DNA of 32,685 nucleotides, taken from contig JAITFE010000095.1 in assembly GCA_031281585.1 (NCBI GenBank), positions 1 to 32,685 of the forward strand, written 5' to 3'. The notes under the pieces were generated by a model, which made no database searches, was not told where the DNA came from, and worked only from the letters and a program-made list of their open reading frames with translations. A program made the translations under genes and the position numbers. This stretch comes from Bifidobacteriaceae bacterium. GTDB taxonomy: Bacteria > Actinomycetota > Actinomycetes > Actinomycetales > WQXJ01. Position 1 is the stretch's first letter. The number at the start of each line of letters is the position of its first letter. Positions 5,671 to 24,814 of the stretch are shown here, one piece after another.

Positions 5671-5922
5671 GCACAGGGCGGCCGATCCGATGGTGTTGGC
5701 GCGGGCGGCCAGTTCGGCTTGTGGTTCGGGTGCAGGGTGCTTCCCCGCAGCGAAACACTTGGTCGGACCTCTATGCAACCGATGGTCGCCACTGTATGTA
5801 ACGGAACGTCGGCCGGTTGCCGCCTCCCCCGACTGCGCTTTGGGCGGTCGCCGCAGGGGCCGGCCCGCCTGATCCAACAGACCGATCGCCCGACGGCCTA
5901 TGCCAAGTGGGTCCCGCGGTTC
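5671..5922. other. Gap between VapC-like and Fic-like genes, nothing recognised
   Basis: About 250 bp with no convincing gene on either strand. Short frames have no ribosome site or motif. The last part holds the probable promoter of the Fic-like gene. Confidence 0.4.
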
Positions 5923-5928
5923 TAGCCT
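5923..5928 (+). promoter_or_regulatory. -10 box (TAGCCT) of a probable leaderless transcript, Fic-like gene
   Basis: TAGCCT fits TANNNT and ends 7 nt before ATG 5936, so transcription would start at or next to the A of the start codon. The GGGAGG between them is too close to the ATG (1 nt) to serve as a normal ribosome site. Confidence 0.45.
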
Positions 5929-5935
5929 GGGAGGC

Positions 5936-6994
5936 ATGTTCGATCCTTTCTATTCCCTCACCCCCCGGTTTCTCGCCGCCGTCTCCTTGATTGAACGCGC
6001 CCGCGGCCGGATCGACGCCGCCCGCCTGACCACCGAGCAAGCGGACTCGCTGCACCGGCAGGCCGAAAGCGACATGGCAGTCGCCTCGGCCGGCCTTTCC
6101 GACACCTCCCTGACCAAGCGGGAAATCGAGGCCATCTTGGCCGGCGAGGAGGTCCACGCGCCCGCCCGCGCGGTGACGGAGGTCCACAACGCCCGCGAGG
6201 GCATGCGCTGGGGGCTGGCCCGCGAACAGGACCGCTCCCCCCTCGCCCTGGAGGACATCGTGGAAATGCACCGCATTTTCGCCCAGGGGCTGATCCCGGA
6301 CGTGCACCTGGGCGCCTTCAGGCCCGGACCCGCGCTGATCGGCGACCAGTTCGTCGGCTCGGACTGGGGCAAGTACAAGGCCCCGCCGGCCGAGTTGGTC
6401 GAGGCCCGCCTGGAGGCGCTGCTGCGGTGGCTGGCGACGGCCGGGGACGACCCGCATCCCGTCATCGCGGCCGGCATTGCCCACCAGGAGATCGCCTCGA
6501 TCCGGCCGTTCAACGTTTCCACCGGGCAGATCGCGCGCCTGACCTCGCGGATCGTGTTGGGCCAGCACGGCTATTCCTTCCAGGACGGTTTGGCCCTGGG
6601 CTTGTATTACCTTGACAACCGCTCGGCCTATTACGCCGCCTTGGACAACGGCGCCAGCTATTTGGAGCGGGCCCACAACTCCCGCAACACCTGGCTGTCC
6701 TTCTACCTGCGCGGCCTGCTGAACGAGGTCGACCGGCTCACCGCGCTGTTCTCCGGCTTCGAGGTGGGCGACGAGTTCGCCCAGGCCTGGCCCGCCATGC
6801 GCCGCGACGAGGCGGCCCTGCTCGCCTTCGCGGACCACTACGGCTCGCTTTCCCTGCACGATGCCGTCGCCATCCTCTCCCCCACCCCCAAACGTTTGGT
6901 GTCCCGCCGGTTGGAGGCCATGGTCAAGGAGGGCCACCTGGTCAAGGACCAGGATGCCGACCCGGTGCGCTACCGCCCGTCGGTGACCGCCTGA
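5936..6994 (+). CDS. Fic-fold protein with degenerate active site and C-terminal winged-helix-like region
   Basis: A 352-residue Fic-family protein. Fic enzymes transfer AMP or other groups to proteins using HPFx(D/E)GN(G/K)R. The corresponding loop here is RPFNVSTGQIAR at 190-201, aligned securely by H183 (IAHQEIASI) before it. The catalytic His is R190, the Asp/Glu is V194, the Gly-Asn pair is Ser-Thr and the following Arg is Q198. The inhibitory (S/T)xxxE(G/N) helix that precedes many Fic domains is represented by VASAGLSDTSL (49-59), where the Glu position is Ser. The C-terminal 90 residues (SLSLHDAVAILSPTPKRLVSRRLEAMVKEGHL) look like a winged helix, as in many class II Fic proteins. ATG 5936 is chosen because the family begins MFDPF-like. 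It ends 25 bp inside the convergent DUF6020 gene. AMPylation is unlikely; binding or regulation is more plausible. Confidence 0.8.
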   Translation: MFDPFYSLTPRFLAAVSLIERARGRIDAARLTTEQADSLHRQAESDMAVASAGLSDTSLTKREIEAILAGEEVHAPARAVTEVHNAREGMRWGLAREQDRSPLALEDIVEMHRIFAQGLIPDVHLGAFRPGPALIGDQFVGSDWGKYKAPPAELVEARLEALLRWLATAGDDPHPVIAAGIAHQEIASIRPFNVSTGQIARLTSRIVLGQHGYSFQDGLALGLYYLDNRSAYYAALDNGASYLERAHNSRNTWLSFYLRGLLNEVDRLTALFSGFEVGDEFAQAWPAMRRDEAALLAFADHYGSLSLHDAVAILSPTPKRLVSRRLEAMVKEGHLVKDQDADPVRYRPSVTA

Positions 6995-8673
6995 CGCCGG
7001 AGGTCGAAGACCCTCGGGTCGGCCAGGAACGCCGCCACCAGCGGCGCGCAGTAGAAGAACGGCAGGAAGTAGCGCACCAGCATGCCCGGTCCGGCGAAGA
7101 CCGGGACGCAGGTGGCCAGGAGCAGCAATCCGACCGGCAGGAAGGCGGTCGGCTGCCCGCTCCGGCCCCTGGCCCAGGCGAGCGCCGCCGCGAATCCGGT
7201 CAACCAGAGGTAGGTGGCCGGGGACCACAGCCAGGCCAGAATGGGCGTCTCGAAGGGCACCTTCGACTTGGAGGAGAAGGCGGCATACGCCTGGTGCACA
7301 AACGCGGGTCCTTTTGGATCCGCTACCCCAGGGCTTTCCGTGTTGTAACAGAAGTAGCTGGTGCCCGTGGCCGGGTAAAGGGCGTCAGGTCCGGACACCG
7401 AGTACACGTCCACCACGGCGCCCGGCAGCCACCCTTGGACGGTGTTGGCGGCCAGCGCGTCCGCGTAAATGCCGGGGTGGGCCAGGCCCACCTCCGCCCA
7501 GAGCTTCACGAAACGTTTGGTGTCCATCTGGAGGCGGGCGGTGTCAGCGCCGAGCATGACCGGGTCGGCCAGTTGGGGCCGGTAGACCGCGAGCGCCTCC
7601 GGCTTCACGTAGGACTCGAGGACGGCCCGTTGGTCCGGCGTCATGGCGCTCGGGGAAGCGTTGTAGGCGCGGGCGAGTTGCTGCAGCGGCACCGAGTAGG
7701 CGGCGACGGCGTTGCCGGCGGGCAAATGGAGGATCCCCTTGTACACCAGCGGGTCAAGCAGCAGGCCCGCCACCGCGGCGCTGATGAAGCAGGCCGCCAG
7801 CGCCTTGCGGGCGGGCTGTCTGACAATCACCGCCAGCAGCGCGAACAGGATGAACCCGTAGACGGCGTCCCGGCGCATGGCGATGGCGGCCACCGCCAAC
7901 GCCGCGACCAGCCACCAGCGCCAGCGGCGGGGCTGTTTGAGCGCGTCGACTGTGCAGACGGCCAACGCCAGGACGACCGCCGAGAAGGCGGTGTTGCGCG
8001 CCCAGTTGAGCGAGAACAGCGCGATGGTGGGGAAGACCGCGAAGTAGGCCAAAGCCCCCCAGCGGACGCCGCGGGGAACCCGCCACGCCCGCAGGCGCCG
8101 CAAGGCGAAGGCGAACACCGCGGCGACGGCCACGGACTGCAGCATGATCCAGGCGGCTATCCCGTAGTTGTCGTGGCCGGTCAGCTTGGCCACCCCGATT
8201 TCCACCCCCGTGGCCAGGAAGGTGTGCAGCGGCGGCATGGCCGTGGTCAGCGCGTGGCCGGAGGCCAGCCTGTGGGCGGTGGCCGCGTCATAGCACCAGA
8301 AGCCCGGCCAGCCGGACAGCCAGACGGGAGTCCAGGCCAGCCAGATGACGGCCCAGTCGAAGAAGAAGGCCCGTGGGCGGTTCCGCCAAACGGCCATGGG
8401 GCGGAGGCGGGGACGTTCGACCAGCCAGCGGGCCGCCGCCACGGCGCCCGCGAAGACGGCGGCCAGAGCCGCGATGGTCACATAAAGCCAAGGCGAGGTC
8501 CAGTGCGCCGAACCGTCCCTGATGACCGCCACGCCCACGGCGGTGGCGGCGCCGAAGACCACGCCGAGGACCCAGGTCAACGGGCCGCGCAAGGCCTGGT
8601 CCCAGCCGAGGAGCGCCCTGGACCAACGCCCGCCGCCAGACGCCGCCTCTTCCCGTGGTCGCGCCAACTTCAT
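6970..8673 (-). CDS. DUF6020 polytopic membrane protein
   Basis: A 567-residue protein with about 10-12 membrane segments, for example WVLGVVFGAATAVGVAVI, WLYVTIAALAAVFAGAVAAA, FAVFPTIALFSLNW and FLPVGLLLLATCVPVFAG. The motif near 125-160, SGWPGFWCYDAATAHRL then TTAMPPLHTFLATG, is characteristic of DUF6020 proteins, which resemble GT-C glycosyltransferases and are found in actinobacterial and firmicute surface-polysaccharide loci. A large extracytoplasmic segment (about 320-470) follows the eighth or ninth helix. It is the last gene of a four-gene minus-strand operon; its ATG overlaps the stop of the preceding glycosyltransferase (ATGA). A role in adding sugars outside the membrane or in polymer handling is inferred from context. 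Its 3' end overlaps the Fic-like gene by 25 bp. Confidence 0.8.
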   Translation of the reverse strand: MKLARPREEAASGGGRWSRALLGWDQALRGPLTWVLGVVFGAATAVGVAVIRDGSAHWTSPWLYVTIAALAAVFAGAVAAARWLVERPRLRPMAVWRNRPRAFFFDWAVIWLAWTPVWLSGWPGFWCYDAATAHRLASGHALTTAMPPLHTFLATGVEIGVAKLTGHDNYGIAAWIMLQSVAVAAVFAFALRRLRAWRVPRGVRWGALAYFAVFPTIALFSLNWARNTAFSAVVLALAVCTVDALKQPRRWRWWLVAALAVAAIAMRRDAVYGFILFALLAVIVRQPARKALAACFISAAVAGLLLDPLVYKGILHLPAGNAVAAYSVPLQQLARAYNASPSAMTPDQRAVLESYVKPEALAVYRPQLADPVMLGADTARLQMDTKRFVKLWAEVGLAHPGIYADALAANTVQGWLPGAVVDVYSVSGPDALYPATGTSYFCYNTESPGVADPKGPAFVHQAYAAFSSKSKVPFETPILAWLWSPATYLWLTGFAAALAWARGRSGQPTAFLPVGLLLLATCVPVFAGPGMLVRYFLPFFYCAPLVAAFLADPRVFDLRRQAVTDGR

Positions 8674-10406: not shown

Positions 10407-11848
10407 GGGTCCGCCAGCGGCACGAGGCCGGCGTACAGCTCCGCCAGCTTCTCCGCTTGGGTCTCCCACGCGAAACGCTCTTTCAGCGCGGGCGCGCGGG
10501 CGGCCCGCGCCAAAGCCTCCCGGTCCGCCAGGACCAATCGGATCGCCTCCGCGATCGAGGCCGGGTCGGCCGGGTCGAACGTGACGCCAATCCCGGCTTC
10601 CGCCACCAACTCCCCCATAGCCTTGACGCGGCTCACCGCCACCGGCAGGCCGGCCCACAGGTAGTCGAACAGTTTGTTCGGCAACGCCATCTCATGGTTC
10701 GGCAGGCCAAGGGCCATGGGGTGGATGCCGAAAGTCGCGCTCGACAAGAACCGCACCACCTCTTCCGGGGTCACCGGCTCCACCAGGTGGACCCGGTCCC
10801 CCACGCCCAGCTTGGCCGCGTGCTCGGCCAGGCCGAGCGCCACCGGGTAATGGGCGTTCGGGACGCAGACCAAGGCCAAGTGCACGTTTTCCACCAGCGC
10901 CACGCCCTCGATCAGTTGTTTGAGGTTGCGGTTGGCGGCCAGCACACCGGCGTACACACCAAGGGGAACATCCAAGCCCAGGCCCAACGCCGCGCGCAGG
11001 TCCGGCCCGCAGGCCTGCTCCTGGCCCGCGCGCAACAGCGGGGTGTTCAACACCACCGTGGGACGCGTCGGCAAGCCCAACTCCTGCGGCAACAGGTCGG
11101 CGATCGGCTCGGAGACGGTGATGACGGCGTCCGCCTCACGCGCGAACTCCCTCTCCATGGCCGTGTAGGCGGCCTCCCAGAAGGGGTTGCCGCCCAGCAT
11201 CCCGGCGACGTATTCGTGGGCGTCGTAGACCAGCTTGACCTGTTTGCCGCGCGCCGCCAGCCGCCGCTTCGCATGGACGCCGGCGCCCAGCAGGTGCACG
11301 TCGTGGAGGTGCAACAAGTCCGGCTCCAGCTTGACAAGCCAGGGGTTGAAGACGCCTTCCAAATCCGCCACGTTGGCCAGTTCTTTGCGCCACGGCTGGC
11401 GGCGCCGCCACGCCTCGTAGCGGCTTTGGCGCCGCTCGGTCCGCACGGACAACGCCTTGGAGCGCACGCGGTGGGCCAGTTGGGCCGCCCGCAGCGAAAC
11501 CGGCACGCGGTCGGTGTCGAGGCGGGCCCGCCGGGCCGCCAGTTCGGCCGCCCGGATGCGGCGGGCGCGCGCGTTCGCGTAGCCGATCGGCAGCCAGTTG
11601 CGCCCCGCGGCCGCCTTCTTCGACACCCGGCGCTGCGCCTCTTGCCGCAGTTCGTAGGCGACGGGCAGGCCGACCGTCCGGGCGCCGCCCAGCTCGCCTT
11701 CGGTGACCACATGGCCCGTGTCGTCCGCCCACAGCAGCGTCACCCGGTAGCCCATCGCCGCCGCCGATGCCGCCGACTTGCGCACCCTCGCGTCCGCCGT
11801 TATCGGGTTGGCCACGGCCATCACCAAGTGGGGCCCCTTAGCCGACAC
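10403..11848 (-). CDS. GT4-like glycosyltransferase
   Basis: A 481-residue GT-B glycosyltransferase. It starts with GPHLVMAVANPITADARVRKSA, shows the acceptor-domain signature LLHLHDVHLLGAG and KLVYDAHEYVAG, then TVSEPIADLL, VVLNTP, and in the donor domain GVYAGVLAANRNLKQLIEG and LPNKLFDYLWAGLPVAVS. A basic insertion of about 80 residues (about 75-155) contains the segment SVRTERRQSRYEAWRRRQPW. The gene is clearly paralogous to the one at 14291-15763, which shares the HDVY/YDARE/SEPLADLL and NKFFEYLFAGLP motifs. GTG 11848 is preceded by AGGAGG at a normal distance and overlaps the upstream gene by 11 bp. It probably acts on the cytoplasmic face in assembly of the locus polysaccharide. Confidence 0.85.
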   Translation of the reverse strand: MSAKGPHLVMAVANPITADARVRKSAASAAAMGYRVTLLWADDTGHVVTEGELGGARTVGLPVAYELRQEAQRRVSKKAAAGRNWLPIGYANARARRIRAAELAARRARLDTDRVPVSLRAAQLAHRVRSKALSVRTERRQSRYEAWRRRQPWRKELANVADLEGVFNPWLVKLEPDLLHLHDVHLLGAGVHAKRRLAARGKQVKLVYDAHEYVAGMLGGNPFWEAAYTAMEREFAREADAVITVSEPIADLLPQELGLPTRPTVVLNTPLLRAGQEQACGPDLRAALGLGLDVPLGVYAGVLAANRNLKQLIEGVALVENVHLALVCVPNAHYPVALGLAEHAAKLGVGDRVHLVEPVTPEEVVRFLSSATFGIHPMALGLPNHEMALPNKLFDYLWAGLPVAVSRVKAMGELVAEAGIGVTFDPADPASIAEAIRLVLADREALARAARAPALKERFAWETQAEKLAELYAGLVPLADP

Positions 11849-14290: not shown

Positions 14291-15763
14291 GTGACCGCAG
14301 GTAGGATCGTTTTCTTGTCCGCCAACAACAACGCTTTGGTCGACGCGAGGATGCTGCGGCAAGTCGAGGCGGCGAACCAATTCGGCTATGAGGCGACCGC
14401 CGTCGGCACGGCGTTTTGGGGCGGGGACGAGGAACACGAGGTGCCCGGCGGCCGGGTGATCGTCAAACGCCTGCCGCGCCGTTTGGAGGGGCGGGGCGTG
14501 ACCGCCCGGCTGCGGGCCGTGAAGGAAGCGTTGCTCCCTTTCTCGCTAACGGCCAGCCCCAACACCGTCCGGGCGCTGGCCGCGTTCTTGGCCCGTGACG
14601 CCGCCCACGGCGGCGGGCCCGCGCCGGCGCGGGCGGCCCGCAAGCTGCACTCCCGGGCGATCGCCGCGGTGGCGAAGGCCCGCTTGACGGTGCGCCGGCC
14701 CAAGGCCGGCGTGGAGGTCTACGCGGAGGCGGCCCGCTGGGAGCGCGCCAGGGCCCGTCGGCTGTTCTTCTACCGCCTGTTCCCCTGGGCCGCCCGGTGG
14801 CGGGTGGTCGCGCCGGACCGAATCGAGGAGGAGTTGGCCGTGGGGCCACTCCTGGACCAGCTGAGACCGGACATCATCCACGTGCATGACGTGTACATGA
14901 CCGACGTGGCGGCGCGGGCGCAGTCGCGGGCCGCCGCCCAGGGCCGGCGGATCGCCTTGGTCTACGACGCCCGCGAATTCGTCCCGGGCCTGGCGTACAC
15001 GAACCCGCGCCTGGTGGCGGCCCACGCCCGCCTGGAGAGGGAATACATCAAGCGTTTCGACCGCGTCATCACGGTCTCCGAGCCCCTCGCGGACCTGCTG
15101 CGCCGCCACTACAAGCTGCCGCGGCGCCCGGAGCTGGTCATGAACGTGCCCGTGCTGGCGCCCCGCCGCCCGGAGACTCCGGACATACGGACTGCGGCGG
15201 GCGTGGCCGAAGGCGTTCCGCTGTTGGTCTACGGCGGCGGCGTCCATCCCGGCCGCGGCGTCCAGACCGCCATCCAGGCGTTGCCGCTCCTGCCGGACGC
15301 GCATCTCGCGGTTGTGGTGCGCACGGTCGCCTGGATGCCCGCCGAGCTGATCGAGCTGGCCAAGCGGGAAGGCGTCCAAGACCGGCTCCACGTGGTGCCG
15401 TTCGTGGACCACGACCAGGTGGTCCACTATTTCCGTTCCGCGGACATCGGGTTGAGCCCGCTGCTCGCGGCCGTCAACCACGAAGTGGCCCTGACCAACA
15501 AGTTCTTCGAGTACCTTTTCGCGGGGCTGCCGATCGTCACCAGCCTGGGCGCCCAAGCCGACCTGGTCCGCCGCCTCGACCTGGGCGCCTCCCACCGGCC
15601 GGACGACCCGGCCGACTTGGCGCGGGCCGTGGGCGAAGTGATGCTCCGCCTGGCGGAACTGAAAGAGCGCATTCAAAACGACCACGAGTTGCTGGCCAAG
15701 TTCAGCTGGGAGGCCCAGCTGCCGGTGCTGGAGCGCGTCTACCGGGAGGTGTCACAGCCATGA
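14291..15763 (+). CDS. GT4-like glycosyltransferase
   Basis: A 490-residue GT-B glycosyltransferase paralogous to the gene at 10403-11848. Motifs in order: RIVFLSANNNALVDARMLRQ at the N-terminus, IIHVHDVYMTDVAARA (about 195-210), LVYDAREFVPG, RVITVSEPLADLLRRHY, VMNVPVLAP, then the donor side LLVYGGGVHPGRGVQTAIQAL, LHVVPFVDHDQVVHYF, NHEVALTNKFFEYLFAGLPIV and a final helix SWEAQLPVLERVYRE. Residues 70-160 form the same kind of basic insert as in the paralogue. It begins at GTG 14291, divergent from the minus operon, and its TGA overlaps the wecB ATG (ATGA), so the two are translationally coupled. The coupling suggests, without proof, a ManNAc or related sugar donor. Confidence 0.85.
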   Translation: MTAGRIVFLSANNNALVDARMLRQVEAANQFGYEATAVGTAFWGGDEEHEVPGGRVIVKRLPRRLEGRGVTARLRAVKEALLPFSLTASPNTVRALAAFLARDAAHGGGPAPARAARKLHSRAIAAVAKARLTVRRPKAGVEVYAEAARWERARARRLFFYRLFPWAARWRVVAPDRIEEELAVGPLLDQLRPDIIHVHDVYMTDVAARAQSRAAAQGRRIALVYDAREFVPGLAYTNPRLVAAHARLEREYIKRFDRVITVSEPLADLLRRHYKLPRRPELVMNVPVLAPRRPETPDIRTAAGVAEGVPLLVYGGGVHPGRGVQTAIQALPLLPDAHLAVVVRTVAWMPAELIELAKREGVQDRLHVVPFVDHDQVVHYFRSADIGLSPLLAAVNHEVALTNKFFEYLFAGLPIVTSLGAQADLVRRLDLGASHRPDDPADLARAVGEVMLRLAELKERIQNDHELLAKFSWEAQLPVLERVYREVSQP

Positions 15764-16818
15764 GCTCGACGCAGAAGATCATCAGCGTGGTTGGCGCCCG
15801 CCCGCAGTTCGTCAAGCTGGCCCCGGTGGCGGAGGCCATGGCGGCGGCCGGGGTGGACCACCGGATTGTCCATTCCGGCCAGCACTACGACGCGGCCATG
15901 TCGCAAGCCTTTTTCGCCGACCTGGCGATTCCCGCCCCGGACGTCAACCTGGGTCTGGGCTCGGGTTCGCACGGCCACCAGACCGGCGCCATGCTGGGGG
16001 CCCTCGAAGACGTGTTCCTGGCCGAACGCCCGGACTGGGTGCTGGTCTACGGCGACACCAACACCACGCTCGCCGCCGCCATAGCCGCCGTCAAACTGCA
16101 CCTGCCGCTGGCCCATTTGGAGGCCGGGCTGCGCTCCTTCAACCGCCGCATGCCGGAAGAGCACAACCGCGTGCTCACGGACCACGCCGCCGACCTGCTC
16201 CTGGCGCCCACGGCGGTGGCGATGGCCCACCTCGCGCGCGAGGGCCTGGCCAAGACCTCGCGCCTGGTCGGCGACGTCATGACGGACGTCTGCTACCGGG
16301 TGGCGAACGCCGTCCGGCCGAAGTGGCGAAGCCAGCCCGGACCGGTCGACGATTACAGCCTGGCCACCATCCACCGCCCGGCCAACACTGACGACCGGGC
16401 CCGCCTTGACGCCATCCTGGACGCCCTGGCGGCCCTGCCCGGCCACGTCCGCCTGGCCACCCATCCCCGCCTGCGGGACAAGGCCGCCGAATTCGGGCTC
16501 AACCTGGCGCGCGGCGGGATCGAGCCGATTGAGCCCCTGAGCTACCCCGCCATGGTGGCCGAGGTCCTCGACTCGAAGAACGTGGTGACCGACTCGGGCG
16601 GCCTGCAAAAGGAGGCCTACCTGCTGGGGCGCCCCTGCACCACGGTGCGCCCGGAGACCGAATGGGTGGAAACCCTGGAGGGCGGATGGAACGTGCTGGC
16701 GAACCAGCCGGACCGGATCGTCGCCGCCGTCACCCGCCCCCGGCCGACCGCCGAACGCTCCCAGCCTTACGGCGACGGACACGCCGCCGCCAGGGTTGTC
16801 GCAGAGCTGACCGCCTAG
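15760..16818 (+). CDS. wecB: UDP-N-acetylglucosamine 2-epimerase (non-hydrolysing)
   Basis: A 352-residue cytosolic enzyme that interconverts UDP-GlcNAc and UDP-ManNAc. The N-terminal GARPQFVKLAP (12-22), HSGQHYDAAMSQAFF, and the catalytic residues D99 (YGDTNTT), E121 (HLEAGLRS), E133/E134 (MPEEHNR) and H205 (TIHRPAN) are all present, as are TDSGGLQKEAYLLGRPC and RPETEWVETLEGGWN at the C-terminal end. The length is typical (350-380). The ATG overlaps the stop of the upstream glycosyltransferase, with GGGAGG at 15744-15749. It runs convergently into the WecC-type dehydrogenase gene, and both stop codons lie within a shared CTAG at 16815-16818. Together the two enzymes would make UDP-ManNAcA. 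The symbol wecB is used by function; mnaA is the equivalent name in Gram-positive bacteria. Confidence 0.93.
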   Translation: MSSTQKIISVVGARPQFVKLAPVAEAMAAAGVDHRIVHSGQHYDAAMSQAFFADLAIPAPDVNLGLGSGSHGHQTGAMLGALEDVFLAERPDWVLVYGDTNTTLAAAIAAVKLHLPLAHLEAGLRSFNRRMPEEHNRVLTDHAADLLLAPTAVAMAHLAREGLAKTSRLVGDVMTDVCYRVANAVRPKWRSQPGPVDDYSLATIHRPANTDDRARLDAILDALAALPGHVRLATHPRLRDKAAEFGLNLARGGIEPIEPLSYPAMVAEVLDSKNVVTDSGGLQKEAYLLGRPCTTVRPETEWVETLEGGWNVLANQPDRIVAAVTRPRPTAERSQPYGDGHAAARVVAELTA

Positions 16819-18113
16819 CGGCCCGCGCCGATCACCAGGCGGGTGGCCCCCGCCCAGCGCTCCGGCCTGGTCACCCGCCGCCCGTCCACCAGCACTTTGA
16901 CGCCCGGCAGGTCGGCTGGCTCCAAGTCGGCGTAGACGGGATGGTCCGCCTGGATGATGGCGGCGTCGACCGGCTCGCCCAAGTGATACGGCGCCCAGCC
17001 GAAGCCCTCCAATTCCTCATCGGCGAACATCGGGTCGTGGACCAGCACGCGGGCTCCGCGTTCCGCCAGCGCCGCCACCACCGGGAAGACCCCTGAGAAC
17101 GCGGTCTCTTTGACCCGCCCCCGGTAGGACGCCCCCAGCACCGCCACGGTCTTGCCCGCCAGGTCGCCGTCCAGCGCCGAGGCCGCCAGTTCGACGGCGT
17201 GCGCGGGCATGCCCATGTTGGCCTCGCGGGCGGCCCGGACGATTGTCGCCTCCGGGTCGTTGTACAGGTAAAGCCTGGGGTAGACGGGGATGCAGTGGCC
17301 GCCCACCGCGATCCCCGGCCGGTGGATGTGCGAATACGGCTGCGAGTTGGCGGCCTCGATGACTTGGTGCACGTCAATCCCATGGCGCTCGGCGAACTTG
17401 GCGTACTGGTTGGCCAGGCCAATGTTGACGTCGCGGAAGGTCGTCTCCGCCAGTTTGGCGAGCTCCGCCGCCTCCGGCGAGCCGAGGTCCCACACCCCGT
17501 TGGCCCTGGGCAGGTCGGGCCGCTCGTCAAAGTCCAGGACGGCCTGGTAGAACGCGGTGGCCCGTTCCGCGCCCCTGGCGCTCAGCGCCCCGATCAGCTT
17601 CGGGTAGCGCCTAAGGTCCCGGAAGACCCGCCCGGTCAGAACCCGCTCCGGCGAGAAGACCAGGTCGAAGTCAACCCCTTCGACCAGGCCGGAGACCTCC
17701 TCGATCAGCGGCTTCCAGCGCCCGCGGGTGGTCCCGACCGGCAAGGTCGTCTCATAGGAGATCAACGTGCCCGGCGTCAGATTGGCGGCGAGCGACCGGG
17801 TCGCGGACTCCATCCAGCCGAAGTCCGGCTCCCAGGTTTGGTCGTCCACCAGCAAAGGCACCACCACCACGATCACGTCCGCGCCCGGAATGGCCTGGCC
17901 GTAGTCCGTGGTGGCCGTCAGGCGCCCGGCGGGCACCAATCGGCCCAGCCGCTCCCCCAGTCCCGCCTCGCCCGGAAACGGCTCGCGCCCCTCGTTCACC
18001 CTGGCGACCAGCGCGGGATTGACGTCCACGCCCACCACCTGGTGGCCTTTGGCGGCGAATTGGACCGCCAGCGGCAGGCCGATCTTGCCCAGTGCCACGA
18101 CCGCAATCTTCAC
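16815..18113 (-). CDS. wecC: UDP-sugar dehydrogenase, probably UDP-ManNAc dehydrogenase
   Basis: A 432-residue nucleotide-sugar dehydrogenase that oxidises the C6 hydroxyl to a carboxylate in two NAD-dependent steps. The NAD-binding start is MKIAVVALGKIGLPLA with D30 (VVGVD). The family motifs FSPERV (153-158), AELAKLAET with K220, N230 and the catalytic C274 in GGHCIPVYP are intact. The pattern SPERVLTGRVFRDL and the GGHC form are closer to UDP-ManNAc dehydrogenases than to UDP-glucose dehydrogenases, and a UDP-ManNAc-forming epimerase is encoded next door, so UDP-ManNAcA is the likely product. UDP-GlcA cannot be excluded and would suit the C5-epimerase-like gene nearby. It starts at GTG 18113 with GGAGG 10 nt upstream and is last in the 21177-16815 operon, 39 bp after the coiled-coil gene. 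Confidence 0.85.
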   Translation of the reverse strand: MKIAVVALGKIGLPLAVQFAAKGHQVVGVDVNPALVARVNEGREPFPGEAGLGERLGRLVPAGRLTATTDYGQAIPGADVIVVVVPLLVDDQTWEPDFGWMESATRSLAANLTPGTLISYETTLPVGTTRGRWKPLIEEVSGLVEGVDFDLVFSPERVLTGRVFRDLRRYPKLIGALSARGAERATAFYQAVLDFDERPDLPRANGVWDLGSPEAAELAKLAETTFRDVNIGLANQYAKFAERHGIDVHQVIEAANSQPYSHIHRPGIAVGGHCIPVYPRLYLYNDPEATIVRAAREANMGMPAHAVELAASALDGDLAGKTVAVLGASYRGRVKETAFSGVFPVVAALAERGARVLVHDPMFADEELEGFGWAPYHLGEPVDAAIIQADHPVYADLEPADLPGVKVLVDGRRVTRPERWAGATRLVIGAGR

Positions 18114-18152: not shown

Positions 18153-18902
18153 CTAACGCCCCGCCAGCCGTTTGATCCGGCGGACCGCGCGGTAGAAGGG
18201 CGAGCGGCGGATCCGCGCCAGTTCGGCCCGCAGGGCGTCCTCCCGCCGGTAGCGCTCGGTCAGCTCGCCCTTCAGCCGCGCCACGTCCGCCTCAAGGCGT
18301 TCCGCGCGCCGTTCGGACGCTTCCGCCGCCGCGCGCAGGGCCCGGCGTTCCGCCTCGGACTGTTCCTCCAGGCCGCCGCGCAGCGGGGCGACCTCCGCCA
18401 GGTACCGGTCCGCCAGTTGGGCGCCCGCCAGCGAAGCCTCCTCCCGCGCCAGCACGGCCGCGTTGGCCATGGTCAACAGCTCGACGTCCGATGCCGTCGG
18501 GGCGCCTTCCAGCCACCCCCGCGCCGCCCGCGTCAAGTCGAAAGCCGGCCCCGCCGCTTGCGGCCGGACGGCGGCGTGGGCCACCAGGACGGTCCTTGGC
18601 CCCGGCAGGCGCACCAGCTCGTGAATCTGCGCCCCGACGGCCGCCGTTTGGGCCGCCAACGCCCGGACGCCCAGCACCTCGCTGCCGCCGGGCAAGTCCG
18701 CCACGAGCCAATCGCCCTGGGCCAACGGGACCGGCTTGGCGGCTATCACCAATTTGGCCTGGCCGGGCGCCGAGCCGTCCGAAACGGCGCCCGTGGCGGC
18801 GGCCTGGACGGCATCGGACAAATAGCCGGGCAGGCCGGGCCTCGGGTCGAAACTGAGCCCCTGCGCCCGGGCCGCGGCGAACAACTCCGCCAACTGCCTC
18901 AT
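18153..18902 (-). CDS. Coiled-coil protein between glycosyltransferase and dehydrogenase genes
   Basis: A 249-residue protein of unknown function. The first 130 residues are a soluble domain with alternating strands and helices (AKLVIAAKPVPLAQGDWLVADLP; PRTVLVAHAAVRPQAAG), without a recognisable enzyme motif. Residues about 165-235 are a charged coiled coil dense in Glu, Arg, Ala and Leu (EQSEAERRALRAAAEASERRA; LEADVARLKGELTERY). The end is strongly basic (RIRRSPFYRAVRRIKRLAGR), which suggests contact with membrane phospholipid or an acidic partner. Similar coiled-coil plus basic tails occur at the ends of glycosyltransferases and methyltransferases in polysaccharide loci. Its ATG overlaps the stop of the upstream glycosyltransferase (ATGA), so the two are made together. 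A scaffold or chain-length role is conceivable but unproven. Confidence 0.75.
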   Translation of the reverse strand: MRQLAELFAAARAQGLSFDPRPGLPGYLSDAVQAAATGAVSDGSAPGQAKLVIAAKPVPLAQGDWLVADLPGGSEVLGVRALAAQTAAVGAQIHELVRLPGPRTVLVAHAAVRPQAAGPAFDLTRAARGWLEGAPTASDVELLTMANAAVLAREEASLAGAQLADRYLAEVAPLRGGLEEQSEAERRALRAAAEASERRAERLEADVARLKGELTERYRREDALRAELARIRRSPFYRAVRRIKRLAGR

Positions 18903-20509
18903 CGGCGGCCCTCCAACGCGAGGAAATGCCGGTTCAGGACCTCGGCGCTGAAGCGCCCGTCGTGGAAGCGGCGGACGAAGTCCGGGCCGGCCTCCGCCAA
19001 GGCGCGGTAGGCGGACGGGTCGGCGGCGATGTCCGCCACGACCTCGGCGATCGTGGACGGGTCGGCCTCCACCACGGGCAGGGGCTCGGGATAGCGGCGG
19101 CGGGTCGCCGCGCCGATGTGGGCCACCGCCAGGCGTCCGGCCGCCATGGTCTGGCTCAGCAACGTGTCCGGGTTGCCCAGCACCACCTGGTCCACCACCA
19201 CGTCGACCTGCCGCAACAGGCGCGGCACCGCCACGGGGGGAAGGCCCCGGACGGACGTGTACTCGATCATCCCCGCGTGGGCCAGGCGCCATAACGCCGC
19301 GTCCACGAATTCCGACCCTTTCATCACATCCGAGCTGGGCGCGTGGGCCACTTTCAGCTTCGCGCCCGGCTCCCACGGCGGCGCCGGGGCGAGGTCGTCG
19401 GAACTCACCACGACCGGCAGCCAGTGCGCCTCCTCGAAGTAGTCGAGCATGTCCAACGTGGACACGAACACCGGCACCCCCAGCGCGCCAAGCGCCTGGT
19501 GCAGCCATTCGGCCGCGCGGGCCCGGCTCTGGAAGAACTCCGAACGCTCGTCGTGGTAGGGGCTCCAGGGCTCCAAAGACCGGTGCAGCGCGGGCGTCCG
19601 GCCGGCCGTGCCGTGCACCATGCAGGCCACCCGCCGCCCGCTGGCCAAGAGCTGCTCGGCCTCCATCAGGCCGAACTCCTGGGCGAGGTCCGGTTCGCGC
19701 AGGTCGTTTACGCCGATCAGCCCGCGCAGATCTTCCAACAGTATGTGGCTGGCGGGCGCCACCAACTCCAACGCCAGGTCCACGCGGGCCACGGGATCCG
19801 GCAGGTCTTCTACGCGGACCAACTGGTCGGCCTCGAACACCCGGGCGGTGAACGTCCGCAACTGGATGTTCAGGGCCCTGAAGCCGGGCACGTGGCGGTT
19901 CACCGCGTCCGCCCAGGCCCGGCCTTGGCCGGCGTAGTTGGCCGAGCCGATCAGCAGGCGGCCGGGGGCGGGTGCGGCGGGCGGCGCCGACCCGCCGACG
20001 GCCGCGCGCTCGGCCAAGGCGGCCCGTTCCAACGGCGTTAGCCCTAGGGCGGCGACTTTGACGCCCTCGGGGGTGACGGTCAACCAGGTCGGCATGGGTT
20101 CGGGCGTCAATTCGAGCGGCCACGGCCTGTCGGCGAAACGCTCTTGCCCCAACCCGGCCTGGCTCAAGACCCGGTCGGTTGTGGATGGCGGCGGGTAGAC
20201 AACTCCGGCCACGGATTGCCCTGCCTCCAGCGCCCTGACGGCGCCCACCGCCGCGGACTCGGTGGCCACCGCCAACACGTTGTCGAAACGCCTGGCGGCG
20301 CGGGCCAACGCGAGCGCCGCCTGTTCGTTCAGCGCCCAGGCCACAACCTGGCCCGCTGGCTGCGCCGTCAGCTCCTGGGCCAGTTGGTCTTCCCATTGGA
20401 CCCGTTCCGCCGGCCGCAGCGTGACGGGCCGCGCGTGCAGGCCCGCCAGCTTGGCCGGGACCTGCGCCAACCCGGGCGCCTCGACCGCCACCACCACCAG
20501 GCTCACCAT
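18899..20509 (-). CDS. Glycosyltransferase (GT-B, GT4/GT1-like C-terminal domain)
   Basis: A 536-residue protein. The N-terminal 185 residues contain Rossmann-like strands (VSLVVVAVEAPGL, QVVAWALNEQAALALARA, VLAVATESAAVGAV) and then a linker. The rest is a glycosyltransferase-like segment: LLIGSANYAGQGRAWADAVNR (about 192), SHILLEDLRGLIG, MVHGTAGRTPALHR, VPVFVSTLDML, LKVAHAPSSDVMKGSEFVD and the donor-site region VDVVVDQVVLGNPDTLLSQTMAAGRLAVAHIG with VVEADPSTIAEVVADIAADPSAYRAL. The ATG overlaps the preceding gene by 7 bp, and the stop overlaps the coiled-coil gene. It may make a bond needed by the same glycan; donor and acceptor are unknown. Confidence 0.75.
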   Translation of the reverse strand: MVSLVVVAVEAPGLAQVPAKLAGLHARPVTLRPAERVQWEDQLAQELTAQPAGQVVAWALNEQAALALARAARRFDNVLAVATESAAVGAVRALEAGQSVAGVVYPPPSTTDRVLSQAGLGQERFADRPWPLELTPEPMPTWLTVTPEGVKVAALGLTPLERAALAERAAVGGSAPPAAPAPGRLLIGSANYAGQGRAWADAVNRHVPGFRALNIQLRTFTARVFEADQLVRVEDLPDPVARVDLALELVAPASHILLEDLRGLIGVNDLREPDLAQEFGLMEAEQLLASGRRVACMVHGTAGRTPALHRSLEPWSPYHDERSEFFQSRARAAEWLHQALGALGVPVFVSTLDMLDYFEEAHWLPVVVSSDDLAPAPPWEPGAKLKVAHAPSSDVMKGSEFVDAALWRLAHAGMIEYTSVRGLPPVAVPRLLRQVDVVVDQVVLGNPDTLLSQTMAAGRLAVAHIGAATRRRYPEPLPVVEADPSTIAEVVADIAADPSAYRALAEAGPDFVRRFHDGRFSAEVLNRHFLALEGRR

Positions 20510-21177
20510 CCGGGCGACTCCTCGAGCTGGCCGAAGGCGGCGTCAAAGGTCTGGGACGCCCGGTCCAGGATCTGTTCGAACAGCGCGTTCGGCGCGCCCA
20601 GCGCGTCCTGGCCGGCCGGGCCGCTGAGGATGCCCCCTTCCCAGGGATAGGGTTCGTAGAGCACAAACGGGACGGCGCGGGCGGCGTTCAGGCTAAGCGC
20701 CACGCCAGCGCTGACCGCCGGCGGCAGAACGGCGACCACAAGGTCAAAAGGGCGGGCGTCATGCAACGTCCGGGCCGCCGCCGAGGCGCCTGGGAGCCAA
20801 GCCGCAGGCCAATGGTCCTCAGTCGGCTCGGGGAACACCCTGGCGTCCACTTCCCTCAGCCATTGCGGGGCGGCGCCGCCGTACCGCAACAGCAGGTCCG
20901 ACCAGCGGTTGACGATCGGCTCCCGCCAGGCGGCGGGCTGGTCCACCCGCACCACGGTCACCGCCGGGTCGGTCCCGCCGGCGGCCCCCGAGTCCGGCCC
21001 CAAGGGGCCCGCCCCCATGGTCAGGACCGTCACCGTGTGGCCGCGCCGCGCCAAGGCGTTGACCGCCCCCAGCGCGTTTGCCGCGACCGGACCCGTGTGC
21101 GGCGGAAAGCGCCAAGCGACGAACAGCACACGCTTTGCGCCTGCGGCCGCCACGCCTCGATCCGCCACGTCTGCCAC
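20503..21177 (-). CDS. Short glycosyltransferase-like protein (GT4 N-terminal domain only)
   Basis: A 224-residue protein with the acceptor-side half of a GT-B glycosyltransferase: KRVLFVAWRFPPHTGPVAANALGAVNALARRGHTVTVLT is the usual start of Glyco_transf_4-like domains, and FDLVVAVLPPAVSAGVALSLNAA and VPFVLYEPYPW continue it. No donor-binding half or EX7E motif follows; the frame ends at 20503, overlapping the next glycosyltransferase by 7 bp. It could be a true half-protein that works with that neighbour, or the relic of a longer enzyme shortened by rearrangement. No frameshift is evident because the downstream frame starts with its own ATG. The start (GTG 21177) has no clear ribosome site; an internal start nearer to VLFVAW is possible. 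Confidence 0.7.
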   Translation of the reverse strand: MADVADRGVAAAGAKRVLFVAWRFPPHTGPVAANALGAVNALARRGHTVTVLTMGAGPLGPDSGAAGGTDPAVTVVRVDQPAAWREPIVNRWSDLLLRYGGAAPQWLREVDARVFPEPTEDHWPAAWLPGASAAARTLHDARPFDLVVAVLPPAVSAGVALSLNAARAVPFVLYEPYPWEGGILSGPAGQDALGAPNALFEQILDRASQTFDAAFGQLEESPGW

Positions 21178-21237: not shown

Positions 21238-22404
21238 GTGACGGCCAACCCCCTGCTCCGGCGGCCGGCCGGCCGGCTGGCGGCCGGAATCGCTTTGCTG
21301 GGCGTGGCCCTCCTGGCCGCCGCTTACTTCGGCTACTGGGTCGGCAGGCCGGGCGGGATCGACTTCTTCGGCGGGCCGGCGGCCCCCGCGTCGCCAACCC
21401 CGCCCGCCACGCCTGCGGGGACGCCCGCCTCCCCCGGGCCGTCAGTGAACCCGCTGCCGGATCCGCCCTCGCTGGAGCCGCCGCCGGTCGACCCGGCGCT
21501 GGGCTACCGGGTCTCCGGTTACCGCCCGCAGGCGATCGACCAACCGTTCGTCACGCGGAACGAGGCGACCGGGCGGACTGTCGAACTGGACGCCGACGGC
21601 GGCCTGGTCTACCGCATGAGCGAGGGCGCCGACCCGCTCTTTCAACCGGTCACCATCTCGCAATGGGCCATGAGCGCCCACACCCAGTATTGGCTGACCG
21701 GCCATGACCTTTGGCTTGACCTCGCCCGCGCCTCGGCTGAGAAGCTGCTGGACGGCAAAGTCGAGGCGGACGGCGCCTATTTCTACCCGTATCTGTACGA
21801 ATGGAAAAACGCCGATTACGGCTTCGACTTCCAACCGCCCTGGTATTCGGGCATGGCCCAGGGCGAGGCGCTGTCCGTGTTCGTCCAACTGGCGCAGGAG
21901 TTCCCCGACCAGCCGGTCTGGCGCGAGGCGGCCGACGCCACCTTCGAATCCTTCCTGGCGCCGGTCAGCGCGGAACAACCCTGGGTGACCAGAGTGGAGG
22001 ACGGGTACGTCTGGTTCGAAGAGTACGCCGACCCGGATCCCTTCCAGGTCTTCAACGGCCAGGTCTTCGCGCTGTTCGGGATCTACGAATACGCGCTGTT
22101 GACGGGCGATCAGCGGGCCGTCGACTTGTTCGACGGCGGCGCGACAACGGCGCTCGCCGCAATGCCGCAGCTCAGGGTGCCCGGCGAAACCTCGCTGTAC
22201 TGCGTCGAGTTGGAGCGCTGCGTGGAGGCGAAGTGGCAGAACTCCAACTACCAGTCGATCCATGTCGCCCAGTTGGAGATGCTGGCGGCCATGACCGGCG
22301 ACGCGGCCTTCGCCCACTGGGCACAGGCCCTGCGGAGCGACGTTTCGGACTTCACGCCCTGGCCCCCCGCCGAATACTGGCCGAAACCAGATGAAAGGCT
22401 CTAG
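21238..22404 (+). CDS. Membrane-anchored D-glucuronyl C5-epimerase-family protein
   Basis: A 388-residue exported protein. Residues 13-34 form one membrane segment (LAAGIALLGVALLAAAYFGYWV). Residues 46-88 are a Pro/Ala/Ser-rich spacer typical of a tether, and the domain from about 95 to 388 lies outside the cell. That domain carries the C-terminal C5-epimerase (GLCE_C) signatures: PWYSGMAQGEALSVFVQL (201-218), YVWFEEYADP (257-266) and VFNGQVFALFGIYEYALLTG (271-290), with several conserved Tyr. In animals and some bacteria this fold converts D-glucuronate units in a chain to L-iduronate. In this locus the substrate would be the assembled surface glycan. Start GTG 21238 fits a leaderless transcript. 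It lies 3 nt before the cytidylyltransferase/SDR gene, so the two are co-transcribed. Epimerase activity on this polymer is an inference; related enzymes might act as lyases. Confidence 0.8.
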   Translation: MTANPLLRRPAGRLAAGIALLGVALLAAAYFGYWVGRPGGIDFFGGPAAPASPTPPATPAGTPASPGPSVNPLPDPPSLEPPPVDPALGYRVSGYRPQAIDQPFVTRNEATGRTVELDADGGLVYRMSEGADPLFQPVTISQWAMSAHTQYWLTGHDLWLDLARASAEKLLDGKVEADGAYFYPYLYEWKNADYGFDFQPPWYSGMAQGEALSVFVQLAQEFPDQPVWREAADATFESFLAPVSAEQPWVTRVEDGYVWFEEYADPDPFQVFNGQVFALFGIYEYALLTGDQRAVDLFDGGATTALAAMPQLRVPGETSLYCVELERCVEAKWQNSNYQSIHVAQLEMLAAMTGDAAFAHWAQALRSDVSDFTPWPPAEYWPKPDERL

Positions 22405-22407
22405 AGC

Positions 22408-23784
22408 GTGAAAACGTATGGTGTTGTGCTGGCCGGCGGCGTGGGCGCGCGGCTCGGCCTGTCGGTTCCCAAGCAGATGGTCAAGGTGGCGGGCAAGACA
22501 ATCCTGGAGCACACCGTCGCCGCGTTCGACTCCCACCCGCTGATCGACGAGGTCATCGTCATGATCACGCCCGGTTGGACCGAGCGGGTGGCCACGCTGT
22601 TGGGCAGCCGCTTCCGCAAACTCAGCTTGATTCTGGAGGGCGGCGTCACCCGCAACGAGACCACGCGCCGGGTGTTGGAGGCGATCGACGCGGATGAGGC
22701 GAAGGTGTTGCTGCATGACGCGGTTCGCCCGCTGGTCGACGAGCGGATCATCGCCGAATGCGTCCGGGCGTTGGACCGCCACGAGGCGGTGGACGTGGCC
22801 ATCCCGTCCTCCGACACGGTGGTCATGGTGGACGACGACGAGGTCATCACCCGCATTCCCGACCGCTCCCGGTTGCGGCGCGGCCAGACGCCCCAGGCCT
22901 TCAAGCTCTCGACCTTGCGGGCGGCCTATGCGAAGGCCATCGAGGACCCGTACTTCCACGCCACCGACGATTGCGGCGTGGTGGTCCGCTACCTGCCGGA
23001 AGTGGACGTCAAGTGCGTTCTCGGGTCGGAGAACAACATCAAAGTGACGCATCCGGTCGACTTGACCATTGCGGACAAGCTGTTCCAGTTGGCCACCCAG
23101 GCGGCGCCGCACAAGTCTTTGGAGGAGTTGACCTTGGCGCTGAGCGGGAAAGTGCTGGTGGTGCTGGGCGGCTCTTACGGGATTGGCGCGGAGATCGCGC
23201 GGATCGCGCGCGCGGCCGGAGCGGTCGTGGTGGCGCACGGGCGCTCGACCACCGGTTTGCACGTGCAGGACCTGGACGCGCTGGAGGAGGCCCTGGGCGA
23301 AGTGCGCGCGGAGCACGGCCAAATCGACGCGGTGGTCCTGACCGCGGGCGTCCTGAAGGTGGGTCCGCTGGCCACCACCTCGCCCGAGGAGATCAACCAG
23401 TCGATCGCGGTCAACTACACGGCGGCGGTCAACGTGGCGCGGGCCGCGTACCCGCATTTGGCGGCCAGCCACGGCCACCTGCTGCTGTTCACGTCATCCT
23501 CCTACACCCGCGGCCGGGAGAACTACGCGCTCTATTCCTCATCCAAGGCGGCGGTGGTCAACTTGACCCAGGCCCTGTCTGAGGAGTGGGCGGGGGACGG
23601 GATCAAAGTCAACGTGGTCAACCCGGAGCGGACCGACACGCCCATGCGCGTCAACGCCTTCGGCGAGGAGCCGGCCGGAACGTTGCTATCCGCCGAACAG
23701 GTGGCCCAGGCTTCCCTGGACACGATCACCTCCGAGTTGACGGGGATCGTGGTGGACGTGCGCCGGCCCGATCCGGGGCCCTGA
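22408..23784 (+). CDS. Bifunctional cytidylyltransferase / SDR oxidoreductase (CDP-ribitol type)
   Basis: A 458-residue fusion. Residues 1-235 are an IspD/TarI-like cytidylyltransferase: VVLAGGVGARLGLSVPKQM (7-24), GGVTRNETTRRVL, LLHDAVRPLVDERII, RGQTPQAFKLSTL and HATDDCGVVVRYLP. Residues about 245-458 are a short-chain dehydrogenase with GGSYGIGAEIARIA (254-267), LTAGVLKVGP, and the catalytic Y376-SSS-K380. This domain order matches the bifunctional ribulose-5-phosphate reductase/CDP-ribitol pyrophosphorylase proteins (Bcs1/Acs1 of Haemophilus) that make CDP-ribitol. IspD (MEP pathway) is less likely because of the fusion and the context. It starts at GTG 22408, 3 nt after the C5-epimerase-like gene, with AAAGG at 22394-22398. 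No ribitol-phosphate polymerase is present in the window, so polymer assembly genes must be elsewhere. Confidence 0.85.
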   Translation: MKTYGVVLAGGVGARLGLSVPKQMVKVAGKTILEHTVAAFDSHPLIDEVIVMITPGWTERVATLLGSRFRKLSLILEGGVTRNETTRRVLEAIDADEAKVLLHDAVRPLVDERIIAECVRALDRHEAVDVAIPSSDTVVMVDDDEVITRIPDRSRLRRGQTPQAFKLSTLRAAYAKAIEDPYFHATDDCGVVVRYLPEVDVKCVLGSENNIKVTHPVDLTIADKLFQLATQAAPHKSLEELTLALSGKVLVVLGGSYGIGAEIARIARAAGAVVVAHGRSTTGLHVQDLDALEEALGEVRAEHGQIDAVVLTAGVLKVGPLATTSPEEINQSIAVNYTAAVNVARAAYPHLAASHGHLLLFTSSSYTRGRENYALYSSSKAAVVNLTQALSEEWAGDGIKVNVVNPERTDTPMRVNAFGEEPAGTLLSAEQVAQASLDTITSELTGIVVDVRRPDPGP

Positions 23785-23815: not shown

Positions 23816-24814
23816 ATGATCGACGCTGATTCACTGGTCCAAGACGGCCAACGCCATTTTGGGCGCTTCGTCGCCACTCCCGCTGCCAACCCCCTGGACG
23901 CCTACCCGCGCCACCGCCGCGCCTGGGCGGATTTCCGCACCAAGGAGTGGGCGGGCTTCACCTTGACCCACCCGGAGTTGTTCAGCTCCATGATCCTGCA
24001 GGACGCGAAGTACCTGGCCAGCTCCGAGATCTACGTTTACGACAGGGCCAGCGGCGAGTTGACCCAGCACGCCGCCAACGCCGCCGGCGGCTCCCTGCGC
24101 CTGCCGACCAGGCTGGCCGATTCGACGGTGGCGCTGCACGCCCCCGGCTACCGGATCGCCTACAACTTCGAGCCGGAGCGGATCCGCGTCATGGTGCGCA
24201 TCAGGCCGGACGGCGACACGGCTGGCGTCAACGCCAACCTCACACTGGATCCGGCGGGCGCCTCTCCCCCGTTGGCGGTCTCAGCCCGGCTCCCCGGCGG
24301 CCGCGACGCCTCCCTTTACACCAACAAGGTTGTCTACCCCGCCAGCGGCGCGGTGGAAGTGGGCGGCCGCCGCTACGAGTTCGACCCGGCGCGGGACTTC
24401 GCCATCCTCGACGAGCACAAGTCCCGCCTGCCCTACCGCACCGAATGGACCTGGGGCACCTTCGCCACGCCCGCGCCCGGCGGCGGCTACCTGGGCGCCA
24501 ACCTGGCCGCCCGCCCGCAGTTCCCGGACGAGGACGAGGAGTCCTGCATTTGGACGCCGGCGGCGGCCGAGCCGCTGCGCGACGTGACGTTCGAGCCCCT
24601 TGGGGACGGCGATTTGGCCCCCTGGTCGGTCAAGTCCGCCGACGGCCGCGTCGACCTGGTTTTCACCCCGGAGGGCGCCAAGGGCGTGGACCACCAGCTA
24701 GGCCTGGCGGAGATCGTCTACCAGCAGCGCTACGGCGCCTACGCCGGCAAGCTCGCCGACCACCGCGTGGAAGGCGTCCACGGGGTCCTGGAGCACATGC
24801 GCGCCCGCCTCTAA
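23816..24814 (+). CDS. DUF2804 family protein
   Basis: A 332-residue protein recognised as DUF2804 from its length and the sequence run YPRHRRAWADFRTKEWAGFTLTHPELFSSMILQDAKYLASSEIYVYDR at about 22-70, followed by mainly beta segments (YNFEPERIRVMVRIRPDG; PLAVSARLPGGRDASLYTNKVVYPASG) and the end LAEIVYQQRYGAYAGKLADHRVEGVHG. The family looks like a large beta sandwich, sometimes compared to lipid-binding or carotenoid-modifying proteins; the function is not established. No signal peptide is visible. ATG 23816 has no normal ribosome site and probably starts a leaderless mRNA. The stop codon overlaps that of the convergent PutA gene in the sequence CTAA (24811-24814). There is no obvious link to the glycan cluster upstream. 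Confidence 0.8.
   Translation: MIDADSLVQDGQRHFGRFVATPAANPLDAYPRHRRAWADFRTKEWAGFTLTHPELFSSMILQDAKYLASSEIYVYDRASGELTQHAANAAGGSLRLPTRLADSTVALHAPGYRIAYNFEPERIRVMVRIRPDGDTAGVNANLTLDPAGASPPLAVSARLPGGRDASLYTNKVVYPASGAVEVGGRRYEFDPARDFAILDEHKSRLPYRTEWTWGTFATPAPGGGYLGANLAARPQFPDEDEESCIWTPAAAEPLRDVTFEPLGDGDLAPWSVKSADGRVDLVFTPEGAKGVDHQLGLAEIVYQQRYGAYAGKLADHRVEGVHGVLEHMRARL

Follow-up and report, generated by a model that had tools for sequence, protein, structure and literature searches.

What do two open reading frames (ORFs) 3 nt apart in a Bifidobacteriaceae genome encode, and do their products act together on a wall polymer? The window, meaning the whole stretch analysed (32,685 nt; GenBank accession number JAITFE010000095.1), is an entire contig (C95) of genome G000, a 3.98-Mb draft of 169 contigs; metagenome-assembled genomes (MAGs) of the same genus are presumably of termite-gut origin, judging from their isolate names. 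A sequence-only reading had described the first ORF as an ectoenzyme of the C5-epimerase type that may turn uronic acid into iduronate-like units within a wall glycan, and the second as a co-transcribed CDP-ribitol synthase fusion. At 21238-22404 and 22408-23784, the two ORFs were confirmed with the 3 nt between them, as were the motifs SGMAQGEALS, WFEEY, and FNGQ...GIYEY; overall, that interpretation was partly supported. Our analysis points to another substrate: the first ORF would encode a C5-epimerase that works outside the cytoplasm on a teichuronic-acid-like polymer and converts residues of D-N-acetylmannosaminuronic acid (D-ManNAcA) or its 3-acetamido derivative (D-ManNAc3NAcA) to the L-gulo form (probability about 0.58).

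21238..22404, + strand: membrane-anchored hexuronyl C5-epimerase homologue, 388 aa (PF06662, GLCE matches in the PDB, structural model, and residue conservation)
22408..23784, + strand: fusion of an IspD/TarI-type cytidylyltransferase with a short-chain dehydrogenase, 458 aa (PF01128, PF00106)

Fold and active site of the predicted epimerase

The 388-aa product matched the Pfam family C5-epim_C (PF06662) with an E value of 6.1e-27 (94.8 bits; curated cut-off, 23.3) and was the only PF06662 protein found in G000. Using phmmer, it also matched chain 6hzz of human GLCE, the heparan-sulfate D-glucuronyl C5-epimerase, in the PDB (E value, 1.1e-9). Three parts could be distinguished: a predicted transmembrane (TM) helix at residues ~13 to 35, preceded by an Arg-containing N terminus; a Pro-rich linker at ~45 to 85; and a GLCE-like helical domain at ~98 to 372. 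An AlphaFold model built with six aligned sequences had a predicted local distance difference test score (pLDDT) of 74 and a predicted TM score (pTM) of 0.76, with values below 50 confined to the TM and linker part. GLCE was the best structural match to this model (Z score, 26.4 over 278 residues; root mean square deviation, 3.6; Foldseek E value, 3.7e-9), followed by the fold of cellobiose 2-epimerase (Z score, 17.5).

The catalytic residues of GLCE are E499, Y500, N510, Y560, and Y578 (PMC13308652). In the phmmer alignment these correspond to E262, Y263, N273, Y321, and Y338 of the window protein; MAFFT also aligned E262, Y263, N273, and Y338, and nearly all of ~35 homologues retain them. 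Loss of the catalytic tyrosines, which would have refuted the sequence-only reading, was therefore not observed, and its assignment of the fold held. The only two cysteines, C322 and C328, adjoin the active site, and the pair is kept in the window's epimerase clade and in a clade fused to CWB2 repeats. By fold and residues, 21238-22404 is thus a predicted C5-epimerase.

In second epimerase copies of Agromyces (L059:10901-12940 and L060:10865-12994), the EEY motif is lost and reads EGF or EAF; these copies have the appearance of binding proteins or inactive partners. Some members of the family have drifted, then, and the fold itself is common to GH8, GH76, unsaturated glucuronyl hydrolases, and AGE epimerases. 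Both observations would suit a carbohydrate-binding or scaffold relative, or a uronate lyase or hydrolase of the alpha/alpha toroid superfamily, that has the wall polymer as its target but does not epimerise it. The window protein is very unlikely to be of this kind, given that GLCE scored far above the other folds and that neither the window copy nor most relatives have lost the catalytic Glu, Tyr, or Asn.

Location and wall-binding relatives

A TM helix with an N-terminal Arg, followed by a Pro-rich linker, would place the catalytic domain outside the membrane. Ten homologues were scanned for wall-binding repeats; the seven belonging to Microbacterium, Agromyces, or the G038 family each carried three CWB2 repeats. 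The epimerase domain follows these repeats in G038, G215, and G315 and at the scanned Microbacterium and Agromyces loci.

L058:8933-10924, L059:10901-12940, L061:8876-10861, L063:9014-11017: CWB2-C5-epimerase fusions in Microbacteriaceae-type genomes
L115:9765-11927, L116:9428-11632, L038:8752-10776: further CWB2-C5-epimerase fusions of this type

Streptomyces copies start with a twin-Arg-like stretch. Together, the TM helix and linker, the CWB2 fusions, and the twin-Arg-like start argue for action outside the membrane on a wall polymer, and the architecture suggests an extracytoplasmic wall-polymer enzyme. The location and the wall target that had been proposed from the sequence are accordingly both likely, the former from the helix and linker and the latter from the CWB2 fusions of homologues.

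Recurrent partners of the epimerase

To the left of the epimerase, genes for a UDP-uronic acid (WecB and WecC) are clustered with family 4 glycosyltransferases (GT4) and a GT-B-fold protein, the arrangement of a teichuronic-acid-type locus.

15760..16818, + strand: non-hydrolysing UDP-GlcNAc 2-epimerase, WecB/WbpI type (PF02350; E value, 7e-88)
16815..18113, - strand: nucleotide-sugar 6-dehydrogenase, WecC/WbpA/UtrD-like (TIGR03026; 307 bits)

The 2-epimerase scored 251.5 bits with TIGR00236 (wecB), over the cut-off of 210. The dehydrogenase scored 254.9 bits with the ManNAc-dehydrogenase model NF040825, compared with 105.5 for the TuaD UDP-glucose dehydrogenase model, and its nearest PDB entry was the UDP-ManNAcA dehydrogenase 4r16 (E value, 3.5e-64).

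A scan of 84,980 species gave 25 related loci, and the recurrent neighbours of the epimerase, in seven actinobacterial genera, were a WecC of the UDP-ManNAc-dehydrogenase type and WecB. One or both adjoin the epimerase or lie in its vicinity in the window, G005, Microbacterium gorillae, a Microbacterium MAG, Microbacterium aoyamense (WecC at 17 kb), Agromyces cavernae, and Streptomyces aurantiogriseus. Identity to the window's proteins was 69 to 71% for WecC and 62 to 64% for WecB in M. gorillae, the Microbacterium MAG, and A. cavernae, and 67% and 61%, respectively, in S. aurantiogriseus. Epimerases that are more distantly related, in Pseudarthrobacter, Ornithinimicrobium, and Brevibacterium, also lie near a dehydrogenase (at 3, 11, and 18 kb, respectively). 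From PF03721 scores these had been candidates for UDP-glucose dehydrogenases, an assignment that was rejected, as they scored 540 to 575 bits with the NCBIfam UDP-ManNAc dehydrogenase model (cut-off, 459). These dehydrogenases are of a different type from the window's WecC (35% identity in Pseudarthrobacter), so the association appears with two kinds of dehydrogenase. Epimerases of Ornithinimicrobium, Brevibacterium, Arthrobacter, and Pseudarthrobacter have a long N-terminal region.

L070:8969-11266, L071:8795-11068, L072:8424-10664, L073:8966-11227: epimerases of ~750 aa

Among 396 genomes of the order, the window's WecC type was present in 12 of 14 with an epimerase and in 118 of 382 without (Fisher p, 5e-5, kinship ignored); outside the window's family, it was present in 6 of 7 epimerase genomes (Fisher p, 0.005, likewise). 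No UDP-glucose dehydrogenase was found at 20 kb or less from the actinobacterial epimerases with a classified dehydrogenase. G005 and Arthrobacter koreensis, which both have the epimerase, each carry a single nucleotide-sugar 6-dehydrogenase, of the WecC type, and no UDP-glucose dehydrogenase was detected in either.

These distributions bear on the substrate first proposed, which was conversion of D-glucuronate (D-GlcA) to L-iduronate in a glucuronate wall polymer carrying ribitol phosphate by way of the adjacent CDP-ribitol synthase. The characterised GLCE-type relatives named in the literature searched, GLCE and the Bermanella enzyme, do act on GlcA, G000 has a gene of the UDP-glucose-dehydrogenase type, and the best PDB matches of the cytidylyltransferase domain are TarI chains. 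In Streptomyces, a teichuronic-acid-like chain is carried on a ribitol-phosphate teichoic acid (PMC13274773), which provides a precedent for joining a uronic-acid polymer to ribitol phosphate. The recurrent neighbours of the epimerase, however, belong to the UDP-ManNAc rather than the UDP-GlcA route, and no UDP-glucose dehydrogenases were detected at the distances and in the genomes given above; the two genes are adjacent in two genomes only, and no strong IspD homologue other than the fusion was found (see below). We consider the glucuronate substrate unlikely.

Which amino-uronic acid?

Genomes with the WecC type tend to carry a trio of WbpD/WbpE/WbpB-like genes, encoding a hexapeptide acetyltransferase, a DegT aminotransferase, and a Gfo/Idh oxidoreductase (L146 to L154). 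A strong DegT match was found in 22 of 26 genomes with WecC versus 5 of 33 without, and the trio lies beside or near WecC in G022, G026, G030, and G050. Its acetyltransferase is nearest to PDB entry 3mqg, its aminotransferase matches WbpE among others, and its oxidoreductase matches UDP-GlcNAc 3-dehydrogenase models below their cut-off. In G000, this trio for 2,3-diamino sugars was observed on another contig (L146:8309-10990). The 335- and 383-aa genes beside WecC at L059, L063, and L066 had been considered as WbpB and WbpE but were rejected, being genes for UDP-galactopyranose mutase, a GT2 enzyme, and GalE.

C5 inversion of D-ManNAcA or D-ManNAc3NAcA gives an L-gulo residue. L-N-acetylgulosaminuronic acid (L-GulNAcA) has been reported in a polysaccharide of Vibrio cholerae, for which a C5 inversion of ManNAcA has been put forward. 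In Streptomyces griseus, a gene set similar to the trio has been assigned to UDP-ManNAc3NAcA, the polymer being joined to teichoic-acid ribitol phosphate (PMC13274773). This similarity makes ManNAc3NAcA and ManNAcA the leading candidates, and from gene context the substrate is most likely a manno-configured amino-uronic acid, which is the weak step of the argument.

The cluster left of the epimerase would then make a teichuronic-acid-like wall polymer whose uronic acid, D-ManNAcA or D-ManNAc3NAcA, is formed through WecC/WecB-type enzymes. The epimerase would act after polymerisation, outside the membrane: by homology to GLCE, H-5 would be abstracted next to the carboxylate and the kept Tyr and Glu residues would re-protonate from the other face, giving L-GulNAcA or its 3-acetamido derivative (L-GulNAc3NAcA).

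Several points weigh against this proposal. The GLCE fold by itself would point to D-glucuronate, and the equivalence of Y321 comes from phmmer only, GLCE being one residue off there in the MAFFT alignment. The window's WecC falls below the cut-offs of the equivalogs nearest to it (254.9 bits against 750 for NF040825; 177 against 459 for NF008286), and the epimerase lies away from WecC in G002, G004, and G038. Wall-glycan genes tend to cluster regardless of their connection, so nearness to WecC is no proof of it, and both Fisher values are open to the effect of kinship. UDP-GlcA could be made in three of the genomes, since G000 has a TuaD/AglM-type UDP-glucose dehydrogenase elsewhere (contig C30) and G002 and G004 have another type, ~30 kb from the epimerase in G002; G005, used above as a genome with a single dehydrogenase, is a MAG of 92% completeness. 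As the G000 trio is on a separate contig, ManNAcA and ManNAc3NAcA are not distinguishable.

Is the pair conserved?

Co-transcription of the epimerase and fusion genes is plausible from the 3-nt gap, but as a unit the pair largely did not survive comparison with relatives. The fusion was present in all 18 family genomes searched, whole or in contig-end pieces, at 64 to 93% identity. The epimerase was found in about half of the genus (G000, G001, G002, G004, G005, where it is cut by a contig end, and G016), and the two genes are neighbours only in G000 and G001; a conserved operon was therefore rejected. In G001, the nearest relative, a VapBC-like pair on the opposite strand was observed between them (L033:4690-5309). 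In G004, the fusion belongs to a right-hand block of genes for DUF2804, PutA, phosphodiesterase, DUF5998, and gyrA/parC proteins, and the epimerase is not there.

23816..24814, + strand: DUF2804 protein, first gene of the conserved right-hand block (matched to the G004 block after the fusion)

Other wall-glycan genes (WecC, the 536-aa protein listed below, or glycosyltransferases) lie near the fusion in G007, G013, G016, G012, and G002. The two genes of the window meet at the border between a variable wall-glycan cluster and a conserved block. G012 has two divergently oriented epimerases from another, more GLCE-like clade (L037:8959-11417).

Role of the cytidylyltransferase-dehydrogenase fusion

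The second ORF matched IspD (PF01128; E value, 3.9e-52) and adh_short (PF00106; E value, 1.1e-31), and its start (GTG AAA ACG TAT) agrees with the start in relatives. Its short-chain dehydrogenase/reductase (SDR) motifs, GGSYGIG and YxxxK, are intact. The cytidylyltransferase domain is not readily placed: it scored just below the curated IspD cut-off (TIGR00453; 180.9 versus 181.3 bits) and below that of TarI (NF001183; 159.6 versus 166 bits), and in a small tree it branched away from TarI as well as from IspD, though support was weak.

Part of this evidence would favour a dedicated CDP-ribitol synthase of the Bcs1/Acs1 kind, with the isoprenoid pathway served by an undetected IspD. PDB matches were higher to TarI (120.8 bits) than to IspD (102 bits), the motifs GQTPQ and DAVRP are shared with TarI, and the fusion, whose SDR domain is intact, borders wall-glycan genes in several relatives. 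The genomic setting speaks against it, as does the tree. No other strong IspD homologue was found in nine family genomes, which gave only weak partial matches in other frames, and ispD was not found in the carD-ispF-cysS stretch of G000 and G004 (L133:3654-6117 and L134:4829-7305). The methylerythritol phosphate (MEP) pathway, judged on IspF and IspG, occurs in each of the ten genomes of the genus; 3-hydroxy-3-methylglutaryl-CoA (HMG-CoA) reductase was found in none of them, so that a mevalonate pathway was rejected as the explanation for the missing IspD. A dedicated CDP-ribitol synthase is accordingly rather improbable.

With a sole strong IspD homologue and IspF and IspG in the absence of HMG-CoA reductase, IspD activity is most simply attributed to the fusion. 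It is probably a household gene, separate from the epimerase and family-wide, and may also make CDP-ribitol. Of the CDP-ribitol synthase fusion first described, the intact motifs stood; the dedicated role was not supported. A polyol-phosphate polymerase (PF04464) gave only weak partial matches, in two proteins of contig C80 of G000; these lend no firm support to a ribitol-phosphate polymer and do not speak against one.

Other genes of the wall-glycan cluster

The remaining genes between the Fic-domain protein that adjoins the cluster (5900-6994) and the epimerase are as follows.

6970..8673, - strand: DUF6020 protein, possibly of the cluster (PF19484; E value, 3e-30)
8670-10658, 10403-11848, 11838-14255, - strand: three GT4 glycosyltransferases (Pfam)
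14291..15763, + strand: GT4 glycosyltransferase of the same cluster (PF13692)
18153..18902, - strand: 249-aa ORF of the cluster (codon statistics; no Pfam match)
18899..20509, - strand: glycosyltransferase-like protein of GT-B (GT4-like) fold, 536 aa (model, Foldseek)
20503..21177, - strand: short GT4-like protein, N-terminal half of the family only (profile match and comparison with relatives)

The 536-aa protein had no Pfam match and no match in a sequence search of the PDB; its model (pLDDT, 83.5) matched GT4 enzymes in Foldseek with E values of ~1e-10. Its family recurs in actinobacterial WecB/WecC loci, with two copies in L127. A gene of similar size to the 249-aa ORF occupies its position in G005 and G007. 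The homologue of 20503-21177 is 436 aa in G005 and is short in G007 too.

Comparison with known systems

No polymer-level C5-epimerase of amino-uronic acids was found in the literature searched, nor any report linking a C5-epimerase with CWB2 repeats or teichuronic acid, and we know of no earlier enzyme of this kind. We tentatively suggest, at slightly less than even odds, that a wall-anchored family of GLCE fold works directly on the teichuronic acids of actinobacteria, epimerising their amino-uronic acids from D-ManNAcA to L-GulNAcA or from D-ManNAc3NAcA to L-GulNAc3NAcA. If true, it would be the first such enzyme known to us, and L-gulo amino-uronic acids could be made after polymerisation. 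Homologues in Microbacterium and Agromyces come from named strains, making the prediction testable.

TarI and Bcs1 CDP-ribitol synthases and IspD resemble the cytidylyltransferase domain of the fusion, and the SDR fusion is as in Bcs1/Acs1; the window's protein differs in sitting in genomes without another strong IspD homologue. It would be unusual for a household enzyme to be replaced by a TarI-like/SDR fusion with IspD activity.

In Streptomyces, the Utr locus shares the UDP-sugar dehydrogenase and 2-epimerase pathway and its polymer is joined to ribitol phosphate (PMC13274773); the wall polymers of Streptomyces and, as teichuronic acid, of Micrococcus luteus contain ManNAc3NAcA or ManNAcA (PMC13274773, PMC3005890). 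In the portions of these descriptions available to us, no C5-epimerase or L-gulo product appears. Streptomyces teichuronic acids are described as binding sites for antibacterial umbrella toxins (PMC13274773), so an enzyme altering their stereochemistry at the cell surface would offer an easy means of changing recognition. For the GulNAcA of the V. cholerae polysaccharide VPS, C5 inversion of D-ManNAcA has likewise been suggested as the source; VPS differs in being a Gram-negative exopolysaccharide, and no enzyme for this step is named in the literature searched. Agl32 of Halobacterium is also a prokaryotic uronyl C5-epimerase of a surface glycan, reported to be without the GLCE catalytic residues (PMC13308652), which the window protein has.

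GLCE/Hsepi (PDB entries 6hzz and 4pw2) and Bermanella RED65_08024 share PF06662, the alpha-helical fold, and the catalytic residues with the window's epimerase, which would act on a polymer as GLCE does. At 388 aa it is shorter, the N-terminal part of GLCE being largely absent, and it differs in its ManNAc-type partner genes, its CWB2-fused homologues, and its conserved Cys pair by the active site. The mannuronan C5-epimerases AlgG and AlgE catalyse the same type of reaction as that proposed, converting D-manno to L-gulo residues within a polymer and outside the membrane, although their substrate is plain mannuronic acid rather than an amino-uronic acid and their fold is beta-helical, unlike that of GLCE. 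A step of this type determines how alginate and heparin bind ions and what shape their chains take.

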